Virus record (IMG/VR): IMGVR_UViG_3300037042_000140
Location: 1-25,131 of that record
From: a virus
Direction: 5' to 3' (one strand)
Length of the DNA: 25,131 bases
Both the position numbers and the translations under genes were made by a program. The stretch's first letter is position 1. Each line of letters starts with the position of its first letter. Under the pieces are notes generated by a model. It saw only the letters and a list, made by a program, of their open reading frames with translations, was not told where the DNA came from and did not search any database. Of this stretch, positions 7,623 through 23,870 are shown piece by piece.

Positions 7623-10529
7623 TTAACTCATTGATAACTTGTTTATTTTCTCTTCAAGTTCCTTTATCTTATTCTCTAGGTATGCTATTTTAAGAGTGTG
7701 CACATCTGAATAGTTCAACGTCAGTCTTTCTTCACCATCAACTAGTTCAGGAAGTATTTCTTTTACTTGTTGAGCAGAGTAACCATATCTAATCTTACCT
7801 TGTTCATCATCAATGAATGTGTATTTAATTACATTTACATTTAGTAAAATATTAGGATTAGTTTCCAACACATTCTTAAATCTAATATCAGAAGATTCAA
7901 AGAAAGCAGTGGCAGTCATGTTACCAGAATTAACAGTTATGTTATTTCCTGACTGAGACATTGAACTGTTACCTATTGCTGTAGCACTTGTAAACTTAGC
8001 TATGTAGTTTGTTGTACCACTTATTGAACCTGCACTACTTGTACCTGAACTTCCAGCTGTACCAGAAGTACCTGAACTTCCAGCTGCCCCAGTACCACCA
8101 TTAGCTCCAGATGTTCCGCTTGTTCCTCTTATACCTGAGGTTCCAGAAGAACCTGCAGCACCTGTTGCACCAGTGGCACCATTAGCACCATTAGCACCTG
8201 ATGTACCACTTGTTCCTTTGGTACCAGAAGTACCAGAACTACCAGCTATACCAGATGTACCAGAACTACCAACTCCTCCATTTACACCACTTGTTCCACT
8301 TGAACCAGTGCCACCATTTGCACCAGATGTTCCTGAGGTACCTGAACTTCCTGATGAACCAGATGTACCTGAGCTACCACTTGTTCCTGATGATCCAGAT
8401 GTACCAGAGCTTCCTGAAGAACCAGAACTACCATTTGTTCCTGATGTACCAGATGAACCAGAACTACCACTTGTTCCTGAAGAGCCAGATGTTCCTGAAC
8501 TACCACTGGTTCCTGATGAACCTGATGTTCCACTAGATCCTGAACTACCATTTGTACCTGAAGTTCCAGAACTTCCTGATGAACCAGATGTACCAGAAGA
8601 ACCAGTTGTACCTGATGTGCCACTTGAACCACTAGTTCCAGTTGTTCCACTAGAACCATTAGTACCACTGCTTCCGCTAGTTCCACTAGTTCCATTAGAA
8701 CCATGAGTTCCAGATGTTCCATTAGTTCCACTACTTGCAGAAGTACCAGAACTACCGCTCGAACCAGATGTTCCATTAGTTCCTGATGTACCAGAGGAAC
8801 CAGATGAGCCTGCTGTACCTGAACTTCCTGCAGTACCAGAACTACCAGATGAACCAGACGATCCACTAGTAGCGCTTGTTCCAGAACTACCAGAAGTGCC
8901 TGAAGTTCCAGAAGAACCAGATGTACCACTTGATCCTGATGAACCACTAGATCCTGCAGTACCAGATGTACCAGAGGAGCCTGATGTACCACTTGAACCA
9001 GATGATCCAGCAGTGCCAGATGTACCAGAAGATCCAGAGGTTCCAGAGCTTCCTGCAGTACCTGAGCTACCAGAAGAACCAGAGGTTCCACTTGTACCAG
9101 ATGTTCCGCTTGTAGCAGAAGTACCAGAAGTTCCGTTTATTCCTGAAGTTCCTGAACTAGCACTTGTACCAGCTGTACCTGAAGATCCAGAGCTACCACT
9201 AGTTCCAGTTGTTCCTGATGAACCACTACTTCCAGATGTTCCGCTGCTACCTGCTGTTCCAGAGGAACCAGCAGTACCTGAGCTTCCATTAGTTCCTGAT
9301 GTGCCAGAAGTTGCACTACTACCAGATGTTCCTGCGGTACCATTACCACCAGAAGCACCTGCCAGATTTATTGTCCAGCTTGAATATGTTCCACTACCAG
9401 TGAATATTCCATTAGATGTTACATCTAATTGTCCTGTTGCTGGATTATATGCGGTTACTGTAGCTTCAAAGTTATTACTTCCATTGTAAGCAACGATAAC
9501 AACCTGGGCTATTGTATATGAAAGACCTGTATCAGTTGTAATGATGTAGGTTTGTCCTGCTCCAGTGGGAATTGTTAAGTTTGTAGAGGAAGTTCCAGTA
9601 TAATCTGCTGATGATCCAGAAGATCCTGATGTACCAGAAGTTGCAGATGTGCCAGAAGAACCAGAAGATGCAGATGTTCCAGAGGAGCCACTTGTACCTG
9701 AAGTACCAGAGGAACCTGAACTACCAGATGTTCCTGATGTTCCAGATGATCCAGAGCTTCCAGATGTGGCAGATGTTCCGCTTGAACCAGACGTGCCTGA
9801 GGAACCAGAAGAACCAGAAGTTGCTGACGTACCACTAGAACCAGAAGTTCCTGAGCTACCGTCAGTTCCTGAACTACCAGATGTACCTGAAGTACCTGTT
9901 GTACCAGAGCTACCACTTGTTCCAGATGATCCAGAAGATCCTGCTGTTCCGCTTGTTCCACTACTTCCAGAAGTACCGCTAGAACCACTAGTGCCAGAAG
10001 TACCAGAACTTCCATCACTACCACTACTTCCACTTGTACCTGATGTCCCACTAGAACCAGAGGTCCCAGAAGATCCCCTTGTACCAGAAGAACCAGACGT
10101 ACCGTTAGATCCATTTACACCAGATGTTCCACCAGTTCCACTACTACCACTAGATCCAGATGTACCAGATGATCCATCAGTTCCACTAGAACCAGACGTA
10201 CCTTTGGTACCACTAGATCCAGAAGTAGCAGAACTACCTGAACTTCCAGAGCTACCAGAAGAACCAGATGTACCAGAACTTCCACTAATTCCAGAGGTGC
10301 CATTTGCACCTGATGTACCAGAAGTTCCGTTTTTTCCACTACTACCACTACTACCTGCAGTTCCTGAGGAACCTTTTATCTCACAGATTTTTTCATCTAG
10401 TTTTTCAATGACTACAGTGAGTGTATCACAGGTTTGAACTCCCGTGCAAGGGAGATTGGGCCCGTCATACTTTATTTTATTAGAACCAGTGAGTTCAGGA
10501 TTACAAGGATCACAATTATGTTTGTGCAT
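7623..10529 (-). CDS. Collagen-like tail fibre with C-terminal S74 self-cleaving chaperone
   Basis: A 968-residue fibre, probably a trimer used for host adhesion. In order: N-terminal anchor (1-50; YDGPNLPCTGVQTCDTL at 21-37) shared with the neighbouring collar fibre; Gly-X-Y repeats at about 54-307 made almost only of G, S, T, A and N, with no proline; a globular beta-rich insert at about 308-390 (QVVIVAYNGSNNFEATV; ATGQLDV; GSGTYSSWTINLAG); a second Gly-X-Y tract to about 832; a linker; and an intramolecular chaperone at about 880-968. The chaperone has SDIRFK (S880, K885), matching the Ser-Lys pair that cleaves S74 chaperones off trimeric fibres, and ends in a coiled coil (LENKIKELEEKINKL). 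Cleavage before S880 would leave a mature fibre of about 879 residues. Confidence 0.85.
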   Translation of the reverse strand: MHKHNCDPCNPELTGSNKIKYDGPNLPCTGVQTCDTLTVVIEKLDEKICEIKGSSGTAGSSGSSGKNGTSGTSGANGTSGISGSSGTSGSSGSSGSSGSSATSGSSGTKGTSGSSGTDGSSGTSGSSGSSGTGGTSGVNGSNGTSGSSGTRGSSGTSGSSGTSGTSGSSGSDGSSGTSGTSGSSGTSGSSGTSGTAGSSGSSGTSGSSGTTGTSGTSGSSGTDGSSGTSGSSGTSATSGSSGSSGTSGSSGTSATSGSSGSSGTSGTSGSSGSSGTSGTSGSSGTSASSGSSGTSATSGTSGSSGSSADYTGTSSTNLTIPTGAGQTYIITTDTGLSYTIAQVVIVAYNGSNNFEATVTAYNPATGQLDVTSNGIFTGSGTYSSWTINLAGASGGNGTAGTSGSSATSGTSGTNGSSGTAGSSGTAGSSGTSGSSGSSGTTGTSGSSGSSGTAGTSASSGTSGINGTSGTSATSGTSGTSGTSGSSGSSGTAGSSGTSGSSGTSGTAGSSGSSGTSGSSGTSGTAGSSGSSGSSGTSGSSGTSGTSGSSGTSATSGSSGSSGSSGTAGSSGTAGSSGSSGTSGTNGTSGSSGSSGTSASSGTNGTSGTHGSNGTSGTSGSSGTNGSSGTTGTSGSSGTSGTTGSSGTSGSSGSSGTSGTNGSSGSSGTSGSSGTSGSSGTSGSSGTSGSSGSSGTSGTNGSSGSSGSSGTSGSSGTSGSSGTSGSSGSSGTSGTSGANGGTGSSGTSGVNGGVGSSGTSGIAGSSGTSGTKGTSGTSGANGANGATGATGAAGSSGTSGIRGTSGTSGANGGTGAAGSSGTSGTAGSSGTSSAGSISGTTNYIAKFTSATAIGNSSMSQSGNNITVNSGNMTATAFFESSDIRFKNVLETNPNILLNVNVIKYTFIDDEQGKIRYGYSAQQVKEILPELVDGEERLTLNYSDVHTLKIAYLENKIKELEEKINKLSMS
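8034..9359 (-). repeat. Second Gly-X-Y coding repeat tract of the fibre
   Basis: About 1.3 kb of imperfect 9-nt-scale repeats encoding GTS/GSS/GTA/GTN triplets (residues about 391-832). Near its 3' end the tract includes GAN, GAT and GGT triplets. The degenerate codon use makes the DNA copies differ, but the tract is long enough to allow slippage or recombination. Confidence 0.8.
9609..10370 (-). repeat. First Gly-X-Y coding repeat tract of the fibre
   Basis: About 0.76 kb encoding Gly-Ser/Thr-Ser triplets (residues about 54-307), separated from the second tract by the globular insert. Same composition and period as the second tract, suggesting expansion from one ancestral repeat. Confidence 0.8.
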
Positions 10530-15746: not shown

Positions 15747-17300
15747 TTAGAATTGTGGTATTTCCTCAATAAGAACTGTACGAGACAAGTCTTCGATAAA
15801 TACATCACAACGGTCCTTCATCCAGATTTCATATCCTGGGAATTTATTTGCAGAGCTCATACCCTGAGACTTAGCAAAGCCTAAGTGGTGACGAGTTCCA
15901 TCGATATAACCCCAAGTCATAGAAGGTGCACCCTTCATACGAACTTCACGGATGTTGTTAACCATAGAACCATCAGACATTGGAGACACGTCAAATACCA
16001 TGAATACTGGAGTGCTCTTCTTGTTCTGACCAAATTCTAGATTAGATTGAGGCAGGTCAAGTTCTTTCAAGTGAATAAGTTCAACACGACCAGTCTCACG
16101 TGTAACCATTGCATCGAATGCAAAGTTGTAAGTGATGTGTTGTCCTTCTCCTTGCAAGTAACGGTTTCCGCTATCAGCCATGAAAGTCAAACCACTGTTC
16201 AAAGCGTCTGTTTTCAAAGCTTGTTGGAATACGTCAAAACCTGCTTCGTTAGTATACATTTTAACTCTCCTGTCCTTAACATCAACCCTTCTGTAGAAAA
16301 GATCACCAAAGACAGCACGAATCAAGTTTGCAGTGAATTCACCACGGTTGTATTGAACAAGGTTACCGTTGTTACGCATTCTGTGGTAAACACCAGCAGA
16401 TGTACGCTTCAACTCTTGTTTAGAACCGTTTGTTTTAACAGTGCCTGGGCGAGACCAAATCATACGCTTAACTTTCAATTCAAGCATAGACTTTCTCATC
16501 CAGAACTCAATGAATGGTTCCCATTTAACATCATTCCTAGTCAAAGGAAGTTGGTTCCTACGCTGTGGAGCGTAAACCAAGATGTCCAATGGACGACCAG
16601 CTGAATCTCTCATCATTTTGTCATCAGCCCACTCAGTGATCTTGTGCTCAAAACCATATGCAGAACCAAGAGATTCAAACATTGTGATTTGCTCACCAAG
16701 ACGAGGAAGACCCAACAAATCTTGATCGAATTCACCAATCGCAGCATCAACCAACTCAAGTTCGATACCCACTTGCAAGAAGGTTGGGCTAACGAAGTCT
16801 ACAGTTGGATTATCTGTAACCAAAGTGAAGCTATAAAGGAAGCCCATGTTCCAAGGAACTGGATCCTTAATAACGTAAAAACGAGGACCATACTGACGAG
16901 AACCTACAGAAATAATTGCATTTTTAGAGAACTCGTTTGTGTCAAGAACCAATTGGAACTCTTGACCATCGATACCAGGCTTGCTCAATTCTTGAGTGGA
17001 AGCTGGAACATCAATGATTTTAGGGAATTTGTACGGAACAGCTACTTGCCATTTCCAAGCATCGCTATTATTATCAATGTAATAAGGCGTGCTTTTGTTG
17101 ATCATGTCAAGAAAGTCGTTGCTGTAAAGAGAGCTCTGTGTATAGAGGCTGATTATTTTTTTGTCATAATCAGCAGGCTCAGTAGAGTGAAAGCTCTCCA
17201 GGTGGTTAGCGTCAGTTAGCTTACCCACAGCACGCTTGTCCATAGATGCGACACGAGCATACGTGAAGCCAGTTAGACCTGGGATTGTTTGAATTGCCAT
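15747..17300 (-). CDS. Major capsid protein (HK97-fold, crAss-like)
   Basis: A 517-residue protein with the length, position (after the scaffold) and appearance of crAss-like major capsid proteins, which form the icosahedral shell with an HK97 fold. Visible features: helical N-terminal arm (residues 30-65), a beta-rich region with QYGPRFYVIKDPVPWNMGF, a long central helix (FIEFWMRKSMLELKVKRMIW), the loop RPGTVKTNGSKQELKR, and VFMVFDVSPMSDGSMVNNIR near the C-terminus. The leader AAAGGATAACAAAATGG contains AGGA at Shine-Dalgarno distance, one of the few such sites here, consistent with high expression. The fold is inferred from family knowledge. Confidence 0.85.
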   Translation of the reverse strand: MAIQTIPGLTGFTYARVASMDKRAVGKLTDANHLESFHSTEPADYDKKIISLYTQSSLYSNDFLDMINKSTPYYIDNNSDAWKWQVAVPYKFPKIIDVPASTQELSKPGIDGQEFQLVLDTNEFSKNAIISVGSRQYGPRFYVIKDPVPWNMGFLYSFTLVTDNPTVDFVSPTFLQVGIELELVDAAIGEFDQDLLGLPRLGEQITMFESLGSAYGFEHKITEWADDKMMRDSAGRPLDILVYAPQRRNQLPLTRNDVKWEPFIEFWMRKSMLELKVKRMIWSRPGTVKTNGSKQELKRTSAGVYHRMRNNGNLVQYNRGEFTANLIRAVFGDLFYRRVDVKDRRVKMYTNEAGFDVFQQALKTDALNSGLTFMADSGNRYLQGEGQHITYNFAFDAMVTRETGRVELIHLKELDLPQSNLEFGQNKKSTPVFMVFDVSPMSDGSMVNNIREVRMKGAPSMTWGYIDGTRHHLGFAKSQGMSSANKFPGYEIWMKDRCDVFIEDLSRTVLIEEIPQF

Positions 17301-17326: not shown

Positions 17327-18607
17327 TTATAAGAACCATGAATTTTGTTTAGAAGGCTGAGTGCTACCTGTTGTCTTAGACTTAGTAACTTGTCTAGCCA
17401 CTTCCCCAAACAGTTCGTTAGATTTTTTTGTAACGCCTGTTTTTTGAATGGTAGATAATGTAGGATCCTTTTCCAAGATTTTGAGTAGTAAAGCAACCTT
17501 CACTTTAGTTGCATGATTCTCAGGTCTTTTCAATTCCAAGATGGTCTTATCGAAATCTGTAAGAGTTTCGCCAGATGCTGTCTTGTACTTATCCACCAGC
17601 AGGAAGTCTTGTAGTTCGTTAGCCAACTTAGGATTGATAGGAATACCATCAAACTCCTTGTTTTTCAGCTTATCCTGAAGGACTTGCTGAACGTTATTAA
17701 TATACTGATTTTTAACAGCTTGTCTTTGTTGTAGCTCTTGCTCAGCTTTTTGCTCCATTTGAGCTAGTTTCTGTGCTTCCTTTTTAACTAACACCTTGTG
17801 GTGTTTTGTTGCTACACTTTCCAGATCGCCATAGTTTTTGAGTCTTTCTACTTCTGTACCGATGTCATCAGGCTCAAATCCTTGATCAGCTAGAGCTTGC
17901 TTAATCACTGCCACTTGATTGTTTTCTTGTGACAGATCCATTTCAGAAAAGCTCACTACATTATTGTAAGTGCCAAAATAATCTTTTGGATTAACACCTT
18001 TTACAAATACAGCTTCGAACGCTTGTTGATAATCTTCACCAAATTGACTAATGAAGTTTTGGACCATCTCTACAGCACCTTTTTTCTTTTCATTTTGGAA
18101 ACGATCAAGGAATTCTTCAGGAGTGGAAATGTTTACATCATCTTCATCCTCATCCTTTGAGAAAACACCAAGTTTGAAAAGGTCGCGAGATAGAGCTGTG
18201 AATTGACTCGTTTGCTCTTCTTCACCTTCCTCAGTTTCCTGAGTGGGTTCTTCTGTAGGTTTAGCTTCAGCAGCAGGAGCTTTCTTCTTAACAGGTTGAG
18301 GATCAACATCTTCTGTTGTTTCCTCTTCTGTATCATTGTCTCCAAGGAAGCTAGAAATCAGGTCTTGACCTGTAAGTTCTTCACCTTCTTCTTTTGGAAC
18401 AATCTCCTTACCTTTTGGAACATCAGGTTTAGGACTAGGACTGGCAGGTTCAACATCTTTTACAATCTTCTGTAGATCATCAGGACTACCTGTTGACGTT
18501 TCAGGAGATAAAAGATCATTGAGAAGTTCTGCACTACCAGGACCCATTTCCATGGTGTTCTCAATACTAAAGTTGCCAAATGATGGCGTATTAAGGTTCT
18601 CAGCCAT
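17327..18607 (-). CDS. Capsid scaffold-like protein
   Basis: A 426-residue acidic protein directly before the capsid gene. The N-terminal 140 residues are disordered in appearance, rich in Glu, Pro and Thr (EETTEDVDPQPVKKKAPAAE). The centre carries a coiled-coil candidate at about 270-315 (QKLAQMEQKAEQELQQRQ). The C-terminus is basic (VTKSKTTGSTQPSKQNSWFL), as expected for a scaffold tail that binds the inner capsid surface. The position between portal and capsid genes fits an internal scaffold that guides procapsid assembly. No protease gene was seen in the window. A promoter lies 32 nt upstream. Confidence 0.7.
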   Translation of the reverse strand: MAENLNTPSFGNFSIENTMEMGPGSAELLNDLLSPETSTGSPDDLQKIVKDVEPASPSPKPDVPKGKEIVPKEEGEELTGQDLISSFLGDNDTEEETTEDVDPQPVKKKAPAAEAKPTEEPTQETEEGEEEQTSQFTALSRDLFKLGVFSKDEDEDDVNISTPEEFLDRFQNEKKKGAVEMVQNFISQFGEDYQQAFEAVFVKGVNPKDYFGTYNNVVSFSEMDLSQENNQVAVIKQALADQGFEPDDIGTEVERLKNYGDLESVATKHHKVLVKKEAQKLAQMEQKAEQELQQRQAVKNQYINNVQQVLQDKLKNKEFDGIPINPKLANELQDFLLVDKYKTASGETLTDFDKTILELKRPENHATKVKVALLLKILEKDPTLSTIQKTGVTKKSNELFGEVARQVTKSKTTGSTQPSKQNSWFL

Positions 18608-18678: not shown

Positions 18679-18712
18679 TGCTATATAAAGTGTTTTGGTT
18701 GATAATATAGCA
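18679..18712. repeat. Inverted repeat just upstream of scaffold promoter
   Basis: TGCTATAT (18679-18686) and ATATAGCA (18705-18712) form a perfect 8-bp inverted repeat with an 18-nt spacer. It ends 9 nt upstream of the -33 element of the scaffold promoter. It could be an activator site or a weak mRNA hairpin after the SPFH gene; no T-run follows it. Confidence 0.35.
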
Positions 18713-18727
18713 TTAATATAATTTACT

Positions 18728-19258
18728 CTAATCAAGTTTGTTTACAATTGAGTCATTTATTATCCTAAAACTCCTGATTGGAGCTATATCTGTGAGTGTC
18801 ACCTGTTGTATATCCACTCCCCATTTCTTAGCTTCCACCCTAACTTTCTTGGTGAGAGTGTTATCAATCTCTGGATCTATACATGCATCTAGAGGAAGAG
18901 ATATAATAATGTTTTTAATGATTGACTGTGTCATATCAGCCAAGGCATCCTGAGCATCAAATACTTCCAAGAGGAATACTTTGACATCCGATATCTTATA
19001 TTTAATAACACCTTTAACAACAACATTTTGTTTATCTTTTGTGTATAGAGATTGAGCAGATAGGCTTAATGTTGTAACCACCACGTGTTGCTGTACCACC
19101 TCATCTATAATAGGGAGTTTCACGTGGAACCCTGGCTTTAACACCTTTTTAAACCTACCAGCTCTTAGAAGAACTGCTTCCTCATAGTCTGGTATAATCA
19201 CTGCTGGGGTTAAAAAGTTCCACCACTGAGCAAATAGGTCTATAAGTTTGTCAAACAT
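18728..19258 (-). CDS. Short SPFH / band-7 domain protein
   Basis: A 176-residue protein. Residues 21-160 show a band-7/SPFH domain: IIPDYEEAVLLRAGRFKKVL, then LKPGFHVKLPIIDEV (39-53), a beta segment with VVVKGVIKYKISD, and VRVEAKKWGVDIQQVTLTD (139-157), all typical of prohibitin/HflK/stomatin proteins. The N-terminus (FDKLIDLFAQWWNFLTPAVI) is amphipathic and could dip into the membrane. The usual C-terminal coiled coil that drives cage formation is missing. The ATG overlaps the portal stop (TAATG). Known SPFH proteins scaffold membrane microdomains or regulate proteases such as FtsH. Its role here is unknown. The family call is firm, any function is speculation. Confidence 0.85.
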   Translation of the reverse strand: MFDKLIDLFAQWWNFLTPAVIIPDYEEAVLLRAGRFKKVLKPGFHVKLPIIDEVVQQHVVVTTLSLSAQSLYTKDKQNVVVKGVIKYKISDVKVFLLEVFDAQDALADMTQSIIKNIIISLPLDACIDPEIDNTLTKKVRVEAKKWGVDIQQVTLTDIAPIRSFRIINDSIVNKLD

Positions 19259-21846
19259 TATTTAGTCTTTTTAGCCCTGTTCTTCGCGTTTTCTTTTGCT
19301 ATGGCTAAATCATTTGCTTGGTTCTCACGGGCCACTTTTAGTTTCTCCCTTTCGATCTCAAGCTTCTGTGCGTTTTGTAAGTTTTTAGATTGAATGTCAG
19401 CCATCTTAGCTTGGTAGTCTTTTGCCAGTTTGTCCTGTTGACTACTTATCTTGCTGATTTCCAATACATCAGGAACTCCTGACTCATCTGTATCAGAAAG
19501 TCCCATGCCCATAGATTTAGCCTCAGCACCAATTAAAGCTATCTCTTTCTTATTTATACGGTCAAGTTCATTCTGATAGTTATCATTAGCAATCTCTTGT
19601 TCTTTCTGAATCATGGCTTGTTGAATCTGAGCCTGTGCAATCTGGGCTTGTTGATCAGCTTGTTGCTGTTGAATCTGCAACTGTTGTTGTTGCATAGCCA
19701 TTTGTTGATCACGCAAATCCTTGAACACCTTCTTCATAGCTCTCATAGACTTCGTGCTGTAGAGCTCGATTACGTCATAAAGACTTCCACCGTTCTGCAT
19801 CAAAGGCTGAGCCAATTGACGAAGCTCATTAAACATTTGTGTATCTTCAGGACGATTTGTCAAGAACACCTTCAAATCACGGAACTTCAGGTCTGACCCA
19901 TTTACAGAAACAAAAGCTGATTCACCTTCGCTGGTAATATAGCTTAAGGTGGATTGAGGCTTCTTGCTTTCTACGTACAGAGCAGCATCAATTATTGCTT
20001 GATAGAGCTGACCCATTACATATTCATGTGCAACAAACCAAGGCTCTGTTTGAGCGTAAGATTGTGATACAGCTGTGTTTACACCTGTAGCAGACTCACT
20101 AGCTGTAATAGATCCCATACGTTGTCTGCTCATACCTATTAATTCCCAACATTCATTCTTAAGCTGTTGAGCCAGTGTATAACGAGATTGTATCTCCTGC
20201 GTGCGTGTGAGGTCAATATCTCTAAATTGGTTAAAGCTGGAAGGACTCTTCAGATTCTCAGGGCTATCGTCAATAAAGACAACACCTCTGTTTCTTGCTT
20301 CCATTTCCCAGATATCAAGAGCGTCTTGAGCATCACCATCCTTAGGAACAGGAATATGCCTGATGGATGTCAGATACACCTTACCCACTTCTTTCTCAAG
20401 AAGTTTATAAAGCTGGTTCATACAGACATTATATAACACCTGGAAAGGTTTCATTAAATCCACTAGAGATTTAGATTCTGTATTTTTAACTTCGTAGGTT
20501 ATTCCAATAATTGGACAATAATTAAGAAGCTTAAAAGGTTTAACATGATAGATATCTGGACCAATCTTTGTTCCTTGATACCACTCATTAATCCATCCCC
20601 ATTCTAACGATTGTTGTGTAGGAATAGTTCCAGACTTGTAATTCTCATCTACAAGAACAGATTGTTCATTACCCATCTCATCTAAGTAGATTAGTTTACC
20701 AATCTTTTTCTTACTGAGCCAGTAACATCTTACCACTACGTATTTGTAACCAAACGAACTAACATTAGATGTTAGTCCTAAGAAGTCTTTTAAACCATCG
20801 TTGTTCTCCTTCATTTCACTTTCGATAATCATACGAGTCTGAAGGACCAGTGGATCAAATGTATCATAGGTAACTGAGTCAATACCAGGAATGGCATTAG
20901 GATTACCTAGATTAGATTCACGGACATTAATTAGTCCATAGTCTTGGAGAGAACTTCTTAAATGGTCTATTTCTTCTTTAGTGAGGTCAGGAATACTTTC
21001 AATGATTTCTGAAAGTTCCATAACCTGAACAGTACCAGCAGCATACGCACCTTGAGCTCGCCCTGTAGGATCAGAGATGTACTTCCTATCAGGCGTTGTA
21101 AGAAACCATGTGTTTTTTGGATTAGCCACTTCGATGTTGAATCCCAGCTTGGAGTTATCTTCATATATGTGATAGAATTCTCTTCCAGAAATTAGCATAT
21201 CGCGAAATGCATCTTCACTCTTTTCCTTTAGATTAAACTCAGCTTTCTGACATGTGAGTACATGGTTAGCCCATTTCTCAGCTACAGATGTATAGCTATC
21301 TAACACTTCTTTCACCTGGTCAAATGACATTTGCTGAATGTCTTCTTCAGAAATATCCTCACCCTTTATAGCAGCATTCTCAATAATTTTTGTTTTGGCC
21401 TGATTGAGAACATATTGCTGGAGAATATCTGTTTTAAATTCCAGCTCCTCAGACTTACTGTCATCATCAAATGCCTTCACCCTGAATGTATCAGGGCGTT
21501 TACTGATTTCACCAACCAACTCATTCACTGGTGTTGTAATGATGGAATACATCTTTACATATGCAGGAAGCTGCAAGTCTGCTGTTAGTACATCTGTAAA
21601 CGATCTAACCTGAGGTTCTTGATAGAAGTCTTCCATCCTAAGAATACCCTTCATTAGGTCGTAATTCTTTACAAACGTATCACGGTTCTTTACATACTCA
21701 GCATATGCTTTGTTTGCAAAGTAGTCCATGGTGTTTTTTATCCAACTCTCATCCTGCTTCTCCTTATCAGTTTTAAACTGGTCAGGGAATATGTTTAGAT
21801 AGGCATATCTAATCGTAGCGTCTTTCGTATATCTAATAATTGCCAT
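19258..21846 (-). CDS. Portal protein
   Basis: An 862-residue protein in the portal position, directly after the large terminase and coupled to it by TAATG. It would form the dodecameric DNA entry ring at one capsid vertex. Portal-like features include the N-terminal helical region, a central core with WYQGTKIGPDIYHVKPFKLL, and the helix segment MSRQRMGSITASESATGVNT typical of phage portal stems. The C-terminus is long and helical: a Gln-rich stretch at about 713-750, an EF-hand-like loop DTDESGVPDVLE at 785-796, then a Lys/Glu/Ala-rich helix ending KNRAKKTK. Large portals with extended C-termini are usual in crAss-like phages. Confidence 0.85.
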   Translation of the reverse strand: MAIIRYTKDATIRYAYLNIFPDQFKTDKEKQDESWIKNTMDYFANKAYAEYVKNRDTFVKNYDLMKGILRMEDFYQEPQVRSFTDVLTADLQLPAYVKMYSIITTPVNELVGEISKRPDTFRVKAFDDDSKSEELEFKTDILQQYVLNQAKTKIIENAAIKGEDISEEDIQQMSFDQVKEVLDSYTSVAEKWANHVLTCQKAEFNLKEKSEDAFRDMLISGREFYHIYEDNSKLGFNIEVANPKNTWFLTTPDRKYISDPTGRAQGAYAAGTVQVMELSEIIESIPDLTKEEIDHLRSSLQDYGLINVRESNLGNPNAIPGIDSVTYDTFDPLVLQTRMIIESEMKENNDGLKDFLGLTSNVSSFGYKYVVVRCYWLSKKKIGKLIYLDEMGNEQSVLVDENYKSGTIPTQQSLEWGWINEWYQGTKIGPDIYHVKPFKLLNYCPIIGITYEVKNTESKSLVDLMKPFQVLYNVCMNQLYKLLEKEVGKVYLTSIRHIPVPKDGDAQDALDIWEMEARNRGVVFIDDSPENLKSPSSFNQFRDIDLTRTQEIQSRYTLAQQLKNECWELIGMSRQRMGSITASESATGVNTAVSQSYAQTEPWFVAHEYVMGQLYQAIIDAALYVESKKPQSTLSYITSEGESAFVSVNGSDLKFRDLKVFLTNRPEDTQMFNELRQLAQPLMQNGGSLYDVIELYSTKSMRAMKKVFKDLRDQQMAMQQQQLQIQQQQADQQAQIAQAQIQQAMIQKEQEIANDNYQNELDRINKKEIALIGAEAKSMGMGLSDTDESGVPDVLEISKISSQQDKLAKDYQAKMADIQSKNLQNAQKLEIEREKLKVARENQANDLAIAKENAKNRAKKTK

Positions 21847-23870
21847 TATAAGAACAATTTACTTTTTTTCTTTTGAAATAATCCTCTTGATTCTGTGAAC
21901 AGTTGATTCTTTTTATTTGGTCTAAAAAAGGCTTTTAGTCTATCATCTCCACTTCCTCCCACCCTTCCCATGATTGGGTCCATCTTAAGAGCTTGAGCTA
22001 TTGCCAATTCTGCTGCTACAATACGGTCAAAGTTACCCTGATCGTTGTATTGAATTATTTCTTCCAACAGAACAGGATCAAATACCTTGGATACGCCAGT
22101 TGTTTCTTTTACAACATTTCCATCTTCATCCTTTTCCTGATATACAACAGCTTCCATATACTTCTTAAGACAGTTGTGCAGATAGTCTCTAATCTTCTCT
22201 GCAGAACGATGAACACCATAATCACGCTTCACGGTGGTACCAGGCACCACTTCTTTCAGCCATTCTGGTTGTTTCTCTAGATAGTGTGCATCTCCTTTGC
22301 TCTTCATGTATTCAATAAAGGATATGTCATCATTTTCACAGAGCGTACGTGCATTGTAATATTTAATAAGCAAGCGAGCTTGCTCTTCCCACGTTTCCTT
22401 CTTATCAGGTCTTGCACAATACGAAGCTACGAACATATCTTGGTATTTCTCACCAGTGATGTCGTGCATTCTTTTATAAATGTATACAGAACCCAGAGAT
22501 GTAGAATATGCAGCTTGTCCTTGTCTATATGGGTCCACACCAGCTACATACAATCCATACGGAGGGTTTTCTAGAGGAAACTCATACACCACTACAGGTG
22601 CATCCTTTCGATCACTACTCTTTAGAGGGAAGTTAGTGATGGGTTGTTTGTCTGTAAACTCATGTCCTATCTTCTCTCCATCATGAAACAGAATAACAGG
22701 AGTGCCTGTGCGTTCCTGAGCAAGAAGTCTAGCCTTTTGACGTTTAGCTGCATCAATATCAAATATGTTTGTGTCCTCATTTAGAAAGATGTCATCCACT
22801 TCTAGTGGGTAGTACATCTTCTCTTTTAAATAGGCCACCCTATCACCAGCTTTCTTTAGACGTTCTAGATTAGACTCTGTAATTTCTTTTGCCTTTTCCT
22901 CATTACTTACCAACATTCTTACATTGTGAAGGTCACTATCTTTTGGTTGTTCTAAGAACGCACCAAGTGTAGATTCCTCCTTAGCCTCCATTCTGTATTT
23001 GTAGGAAATGAAGAGTCCGTGCACGCGTCTATCATCTTTCTCATTATTATATGTAAGGAAGTTGAAATTGTCTACATCGAACATTAAGCTCTTTGCATCC
23101 ATGAATCTCTTCATATCACCACCTGTACCTGTCAGGATTGGAGAACATCCCCATCCATAAGGAGTGGTGAAACCAGGCACAGCTGCCTGAAAACCTCTTA
23201 AGAAGTTGCCTTTACCAATCTCATCTATAATTAGTTTACGTGGTTTAGTACCTGCAATAGCTTCTTCGTTATTACCTTCATCCAGGTTACGGATGAGGAT
23301 CTGAGAGAACGGTATACGTTCTCCTGATTTAGTCTTGATACCTAGGGTGACTTGGTTTTTCCAATTATCCTCCACTCTCTGCCATCTCCATGCTTCAGGT
23401 AGAAAGTTGAGGCCCTTGTCCAGCTTATCTGTGATCAGCTTTATATCGGGGGCATTCAACCCAGCGATCACATTCTGGGAGTTTTCATCAAATGTAGCGC
23501 CCCACCCTATGTAAGAAGCCTCAAGGACAGATTTAGCAAAACGTCTAATTCCTAGTATAACTAGTCCTTTTTTGTCTTGTTGTGCCCTCTCTATTTCGTT
23601 TGTTACAATCCACTCATTATCTCTAAGGAGTGGGTTGGCATATTTTTGTGATATTCTTCCACGTTCATCAATTACATCCACCTCTGTGTGCCATATATTC
23701 AAATGCCAGTAGAGAAATGGATTAATGAACACACCGTTCATCATTGCACCGTTTAAGCATAAATCTCTATGAAAGTCAAAGAATGGCTTATACTCTGCTG
23801 ACTCACGGTCAGGAATACGTGGTTGGTTGATGAACCAATCTTTGTAGTCTATACTTTTAATTTCACTCAT
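21846..23870 (-). CDS. Terminase large subunit
   Basis: A 674-residue packaging motor with ATPase and nuclease domains. ATPase: Walker A-like LGIRRFAKSV at 106-115, Walker B KLIIDEIG at 212-219, and the coupling motif TGTGGDM at 247-253. RNase H-like nuclease: D446 in AGVDPYRQ, E512 in CENDD, and a third acid probably D615 in NFDRIVAAELA. The length is normal for crAss-like terminases and no motif is missing. The ATG has AGGAG at Shine-Dalgarno distance (AGGAGATAAAAATG), 2 nt after the upstream stop, and the stop overlaps the portal start. Confidence 0.92.
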   Translation of the reverse strand: MSEIKSIDYKDWFINQPRIPDRESAEYKPFFDFHRDLCLNGAMMNGVFINPFLYWHLNIWHTEVDVIDERGRISQKYANPLLRDNEWIVTNEIERAQQDKKGLVILGIRRFAKSVLEASYIGWGATFDENSQNVIAGLNAPDIKLITDKLDKGLNFLPEAWRWQRVEDNWKNQVTLGIKTKSGERIPFSQILIRNLDEGNNEEAIAGTKPRKLIIDEIGKGNFLRGFQAAVPGFTTPYGWGCSPILTGTGGDMKRFMDAKSLMFDVDNFNFLTYNNEKDDRRVHGLFISYKYRMEAKEESTLGAFLEQPKDSDLHNVRMLVSNEEKAKEITESNLERLKKAGDRVAYLKEKMYYPLEVDDIFLNEDTNIFDIDAAKRQKARLLAQERTGTPVILFHDGEKIGHEFTDKQPITNFPLKSSDRKDAPVVVYEFPLENPPYGLYVAGVDPYRQGQAAYSTSLGSVYIYKRMHDITGEKYQDMFVASYCARPDKKETWEEQARLLIKYYNARTLCENDDISFIEYMKSKGDAHYLEKQPEWLKEVVPGTTVKRDYGVHRSAEKIRDYLHNCLKKYMEAVVYQEKDEDGNVVKETTGVSKVFDPVLLEEIIQYNDQGNFDRIVAAELAIAQALKMDPIMGRVGGSGDDRLKAFFRPNKKNQLFTESRGLFQKKKSKLFL

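Follow-up and report, generated by a model that had tools for sequence, protein, structure and literature searches.

A compact SPFH protein encoded in an exchangeable slot behind the portal gene of uncultured crAss-like phages

Results

The window, a 25,131-nt stretch of viral DNA (positions 1 to 25,131 of IMG/VR record IMGVR_UViG_3300037042_000140), carries terminase, portal and capsid genes of the Crassvirales type, all on the minus strand. The gene for the terminase large subunit (TerL; 21846..23870; phrog_6681, E 1.5e-86) is followed by that for the portal protein (19258..21846; phrog_6547, E 7.1e-100; P22_portal, E 1.1e-11), by an ORF spanning exactly 18728..19258 for a 176-aa SPFH protein, which we call mini-SPFH, by a gene for a 426-aa protein with an acidic N-terminal half (17327..18607) and by the major capsid protein (MCP) gene (15747..17300; PF23898 Crass_capsid, E 5.7e-27). 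The 426-aa product has only a weak match, to phrog_16294, and we name its gene scaffold for its place between portal and MCP, which is the same in all related loci. Elsewhere in the window (7623-10529, minus strand) lies the gene for a 968-aa protein composed mostly of GTSGSSGSSG-type repeats, whose C-terminal end, we presume, resembles an S74-type intramolecular chaperone.

A sequence-only reading of this DNA, which gave no strand, had described an SPFH protein between portal and scaffold, coupled to the portal gene by TAATG. The letters bear this out: the portal stop and the SPFH start overlap by one base within TAATG (19256..19260, minus strand). Since TerL and portal share a 1-base overlap in the same manner, TAATG is how genes are joined throughout this run and no sign of a special bond between portal and SPFH. 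The same reading had placed the gene inside the packaging-head cassette; the neighbours were named correctly, but mini-SPFH is the last gene of the TerL-portal run and adjoins a conserved intergenic element. This element, the 15-mer TTAATGCTATATTAT (18702..18716, minus strand), lies in the gap between the SPFH and scaffold genes and may regulate the unit downstream of it.

The portal protein of the window is 30% identical to that of Leptolyngbya phage Lbo-JY46 and 24-28% identical to those of gut crAss-like phages, and its MCP is 26% identical to that of Lbo-JY46, its closest named phage. These values suggest that the clade of the window is, at best, a distant and separate lineage relative to the named crAss-like phages. 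Of the cultured relatives, the one nearest in portal and MCP (PP438436.1) infects the cyanobacterium Leptolyngbya boryana, and the usual assumption of a Bacteroidota host may not hold for this clade. A search of host genome contigs with the portal and with the SPFH alignment found no relatives, a viral search with the Lbo-JY46 portal found one (L199), and none of the GenBank crAss-like records retrieved by portal was among the SPFH matches.

The SPFH assignment is well founded. In a Pfam scan mini-SPFH returned Band_7 (PF01145) alone, over residues 21-160, with an E-value of 1.4e-24 and 87.5 bits against a cut-off of 23.6. A phmmer search of the PDB gave QmcA as the best solved relative by sequence (3.9e-11), together with stomatin and HflK. 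The AlphaFold2 model is of medium confidence (pLDDT 69, pTM 0.52); its Foldseek matches are stomatin, HflK/C, QmcA and prohibitin, and against the stomatin SPFH domains 4fvj and 8gn9 it scored a TM (target) of 0.81-0.83 at 2.1-2.4 Å over 103-112 columns.

The protein consists of a 20-residue N-terminal stretch, a core made up of SPFH1 and SPFH2 (residues 21-160, the Pfam match interval; 18779..19198, minus strand) and a 16-residue tail (residues 161-176; 18731..18778, minus strand). Apart from a few edge-truncated or interrupted copies, all homologues are exactly 176 aa long. Judged by the end of the ORF and by comparison of homologues, the tail has no coiled-coil region, as the sequence-only reading had said: the SPFH match stops at about residue 160 of 176, 16 residues before the end of the protein, whereas QmcA (305 aa, matched over 22-165) continues for ~140 further residues. 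Residues 2-16 (19211..19255, minus strand) are predicted by AlphaFold2 to form an amphipathic helix, which would replace a transmembrane anchor; its hydrophobic moment is 0.53-0.75 across 21 homologues, among the highest of any 16-mer in the protein. No signal peptide and no transmembrane anchor were predicted, and a strong transmembrane segment was not found in mini-SPFH or its homologues, in which the maximum 19-residue hydropathy is 1.2-1.9, borderline in a few. The conservation of the amphipathic helix supports the membrane-directed character that had been proposed for the protein. Compared with the SPFH/Band 7 proteins QmcA (YbbK), stomatin and HflK/HflC, which are ~300 aa long, mini-SPFH (176 aa) shares SPFH1 and SPFH2 (residues 21-160) but lacks the transmembrane anchor, the intramembrane hairpin, the coiled coil and the C-terminal cap. 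By sequence and structure prediction, it is a minimal SPFH protein, with an amphipathic N-helix, SPFH1 and SPFH2, and without a transmembrane helix or a cage-closing coiled coil; oligomer formation and membrane binding are likewise predictions.

In IMG/VR, 72 stretches encoding mini-SPFH were found with the protein as query and 205 with the SPFH alignment. The 72 loci, which were examined first, have the gene order portal, SPFH, scaffold, MCP wherever the contig allows. The converse search, from the portal, gave 516 stretches, and of the best 80 of these, which were examined, 79 were informative. At the position behind the portal gene, 44 of the 79 have an intact SPFH gene, one a truncated gene, 21 are empty, with a junction of ~110-180 nt, and 13 carry a module of two ORFs; since close relatives and pattern-matched loci are over-represented in the sample, these counts describe the neighbourhood of the window and not the order Crassvirales. 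Mini-SPFH is thus lacking from 34 of the 79 informative close relatives, so that not every phage with the shared portal requires it. In L154 the N-terminal half of the SPFH copy is deleted.

The SPFH gene has not moved elsewhere in the records that lack it behind the portal: in 23 records without the gene no other Band_7 match was found, and in a 24th (L154) only the known fragment. The records with neither an intact SPFH gene nor another Band_7 match include two of 114.7 and 116.9 kb. Thirteen long SPFH-bearing records each have exactly one Band_7 copy.

The replacement module encodes two small proteins of ~80 and ~85 aa that are unrelated to SPFH (L077:8595-9063, L089:8595-9060, L105:8589-9057 and ten more loci), and it mostly starts with the identical 1-base overlap at the portal stop. 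The second protein has a conserved HEHFH, within an invariant LHEHFHL (HExxH) motif. Neither ORF matched Pfam or PHROGs, a tblastn search of phage records with the HExxH protein gave nothing, and the protein was not found elsewhere in SPFH-bearing genomes. Its AlphaFold2 model (pLDDT 59) is too poor for a structure search. Since the alternative HExxH module has no known function, the slot gives no independent clue to the function of mini-SPFH. Extra insertions between portal and SPFH were also seen, namely an endonuclease VII gene in L047 and L048 (PF02945, E 8.3e-26 in L048) and a 65-aa ORF in L019, L022, L025 and L062.

The 15-mer, or a near match to its first letters, is found ~110 nt before the scaffold ATG in all slot states. 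It is near-invariant and occurs in one or two copies per genome of 100+ kb; the second copies in G026 and G030 are on the other strand, at a distance of ~7 kb. Several empty junctions have a hairpin directly behind the portal stop, mostly GC-rich and in some cases with a TTCG loop. One SPFH-lacking group (L142, L144, L146, L148, L150 and L152) has GC-rich hairpins there such as CCCCTC-TTCG-GAGGGG, a type that is terminator-like but without a T run. We infer that the TerL-portal run ends at the junction and that transcription of the scaffold gene starts separately, at a putative promoter, which would make the junction a cargo slot at the end of an operon.

A tree of 96 portals requires 12 changes of SPFH state, and well-supported branches force at least 8 of them; the empty state changes 5 times (4 forced) and the replacement module 7 times (4 forced). 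SPFH state differs even between phages whose portals are >90% identical. The SPFH alleles, too, have been exchanged between lineages, as is evident from both distances and trees. Distance correlations between SPFH and its neighbour genes (0.22-0.34) are poorer than those of the neighbours among themselves (0.42-0.54). For L051, L083 and L042, identity to the window is 89-90% in the portal but only 69-71% in SPFH, whereas for L008 the values are 83% (portal) and 85% (SPFH). In the SPFH tree the window groups with L002, L006 and L008 (window, L002 and L008, support 97), while in the portal tree it groups with L006, L051 and L083 (window, L051 and L083, support 98). Polymorphism of the slot, repeated change of its state and exchange of alleles together identify the site as an exchangeable cargo slot, which lies at the 3' end of the TerL-portal run in this uncultured crAss-like clade and in which mini-SPFH is accessory cargo that can be exchanged. 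In L061 and L071, TerL is just 59-61% identical to that of the window and the portal 87-88%; the terminase gene, too, appears to have been exchanged there.

The direction of these changes could be read in one case. The empty junction of L093 retains the last bases of the SPFH gene (2 mismatches in 16; 0/2000 shuffles). Remnants in L121, L135 and L147 are suggestive and those in other empty junctions are not significant, so gain and loss are not separable everywhere. The sequence-only reading had held that a gene absent from or scattered among related phages would indicate a chance gain of little importance. The gene is indeed scattered and often absent; it does not, however, look like an unimportant chance gain. 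Its dN/dS is 0.098, compared with 0.081 for portal and 0.151 for scaffold, and 95 of 176 alignment columns are invariant or nearly so in 21 diverse copies. With a dN/dS of ~0.1 and the same length kept in many divergent copies, mini-SPFH is evidently under strong purifying selection.

Discussion

From its position, a role of the gene in head assembly or ejection had been suggested. This does not agree with its absence or replacement in phages with portals up to 92-93% identical. The accompanying remark that no standard phage assembly step needs an SPFH protein is right in so far as close relatives do without the gene, but as a statement on membrane factors in general it is contradicted by T4, whose proheads begin on membrane-attached gp20 with the viral chaperone gp40 (PMC9958956). 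On this precedent, and given the 1-base overlap with the portal gene and the position directly before scaffold, mini-SPFH could be a membrane platform that keeps the portal ring at the inner membrane during scaffold and capsid assembly, a part that gp40 and YidC probably play for T4 gp20. We consider such a platform rather unlikely, because beside such similar portals the gene is missing or replaced, because no TerL, portal or MCP substitution tracks the presence of SPFH beyond chance, with a marginal signal in the best scaffold column (15/200 flips), and because the same overlap joins TerL to portal and portal to the unrelated replacement module. Moreover, gp40, which would be the functional analogue, is needed for assembly of the portal initiator (PMC9958956), whereas mini-SPFH is dispensable and contains only Band_7 by Pfam. 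It is also very unlikely that mini-SPFH, as a minor virion protein or an ejection protein, comes into contact with the host membrane when DNA enters the cell. Vi01-like phages have an SPFH lipoprotein that is listed in a virion proteomics table, with a count of 3 (PMC10892097), but it comes from an unrelated myovirus group, and portal and capsid of the SPFH-lacking relatives show no compensating change. Mini-SPFH is most likely an optional tool at the host cell membrane and no part of head building.

What it might do there is constrained by topology. Having neither a signal nor an anchor, mini-SPFH should remain on the cytoplasmic side. HflK/C cages lie in the periplasm (PMC12048511, PMC13086221), while that of QmcA/YbbK points into the cytoplasm (PMC13086221). 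A cytoplasmic location therefore argues against the proposal of the sequence-only reading that the protein is a truncated poison, mixing into host HflK/HflC and releasing or blocking FtsH, and is compatible with QmcA-, stomatin- or flotillin-like partners. Among NCBIfam models HflK (TIGR01933) does score best, but its 67.9 bits fall far under the cut-off of 159.4, as do the 48.9 bits for TIGR01932 (cut-off 134.4). A part in a lambda-type lysogeny decision is also unlikely, since no tyrosine integrase was found in the 19 records searched. We thus regard HflK/HflC poisoning as very unlikely. That mini-SPFH is a neutral passenger, captured from a host and of little importance, would fit its frequent absence, the 3' remnant in L093 and the half-deleted copy in L154; the low dN/dS, the fixed length, the presence in >200 IMG/VR stretches and the many invariant columns make this very improbable. 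A possible, if on the whole unlikely, function is superinfection exclusion or anti-defence at the inner membrane, where altered microdomains would foil DNA entry by competitors or membrane-acting defence, and where gain, loss and allele exchange would mirror changing hosts and rivals. Conflict genes would be expected to show just such repeated gain or loss, along with allele exchange and displacement by an unrelated module, and the same genomes encode homologues of rIIA and rIIB, known membrane-acting accessory genes. However, PADLOC gave no match, and rIIA (15 of 19 records tested, among them G025, G006 and G009, with G009 and G027 split over two matches; rIIB homologues are also present, with two proteins in G025) occurs in SPFH-bearing, empty and replaced genomes alike and so is not linked to SPFH.

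Our preferred reading is that mini-SPFH most likely serves as an accessory protein at the host membrane, on its cytoplasmic face. Judging from gene order, it would be translated together with the portal and expressed late. The N-helix would bind the host inner membrane from the cytoplasmic side, and SPFH-SPFH edge contacts could let the protein join or cap cytoplasm-facing host SPFH rings of the QmcA/YbbK, stomatin or flotillin type. A host membrane quality-control platform might thereby be disturbed or recruited late in infection, and the outcome could be that phage production is protected or membrane-based defence blunted. To this working model as a whole, an accessory mini-SPFH at the cytoplasmic membrane face in contact with host SPFH rings, we assign a probability of roughly 0.4. 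A narrower form seems quite unlikely, namely that mini-SPFH, able to make edge contacts but missing the coiled coil that closes the cage, caps cytoplasm-facing host SPFH cages and is traded, in one conflict slot after the portal gene, for an unrelated HExxH pair of equivalent effect on the host.

SPFH genes have been described in other tailed phages, including Streptomyces phage StarPlatinum, Rhizobium phage Pasto, Vibrio phage pVa5, mycobacteriophage LeBron (gp49) and Kuttervirus (a lipoprotein), with further examples in Bruynoghevirus (PMC8540360), CSP3 (PMC10269572) and DLP3 (PMC7326821). Overexpressed LeBron gp49 is mildly toxic (PMC13148394). At 281-313 aa, the proteins of StarPlatinum, Pasto, pVa5 and LeBron leave room for a C-terminal region, in contrast to the 176 aa of mini-SPFH; nor does the present comparison show for any of them, or for the Kuttervirus lipoprotein, the exchange slot behind the portal gene that it shows for mini-SPFH. 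Compact forms of ~175 aa are rarer than the longer ones, and two were found. In Podoviridae sp. ctgrD200 (MW202733.1), an unrelated podovirus, a mini-SPFH of <=187 aa (PF01145, E 1.7e-11) has the same domain start and end as that of the window, is 26% identical to it and is encoded directly behind the terminase large subunit gene. The annotated start of this 'prohibitin-like protein' (L075:7980-8543) leaves out ~40-50 N-terminal residues of the full frame; a viral search with the protein as query gave no relatives. The other is A0A6J7WFI0, an 'HflK protein' of 173 aa from an uncultured Caudovirales phage in BFVD, 31% identical and the best structural match in the viral library. An 'HflC' gene among the head genes of Vibrio phage Seahorse was considered as a parallel and rejected, as it has no Band_7 match. 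A literature search combining crAss and SPFH gave nothing relevant, and the main crAss-like survey (PMC7886860) makes no mention of SPFH, Band 7, stomatin, prohibitin or HflK.

Thus, phage-encoded SPFH proteins were already known, and what is new is a compact, swappable form. Phage SPFH proteins are often annotated, yet their role is almost untested. The presence, absence, half-deletion or replacement of mini-SPFH in otherwise similar phages provides natural comparisons that can separate a role in assembly from one directed at the host, and a viral SPFH subunit without the cage-closing part would be a natural probe of SPFH cage function.
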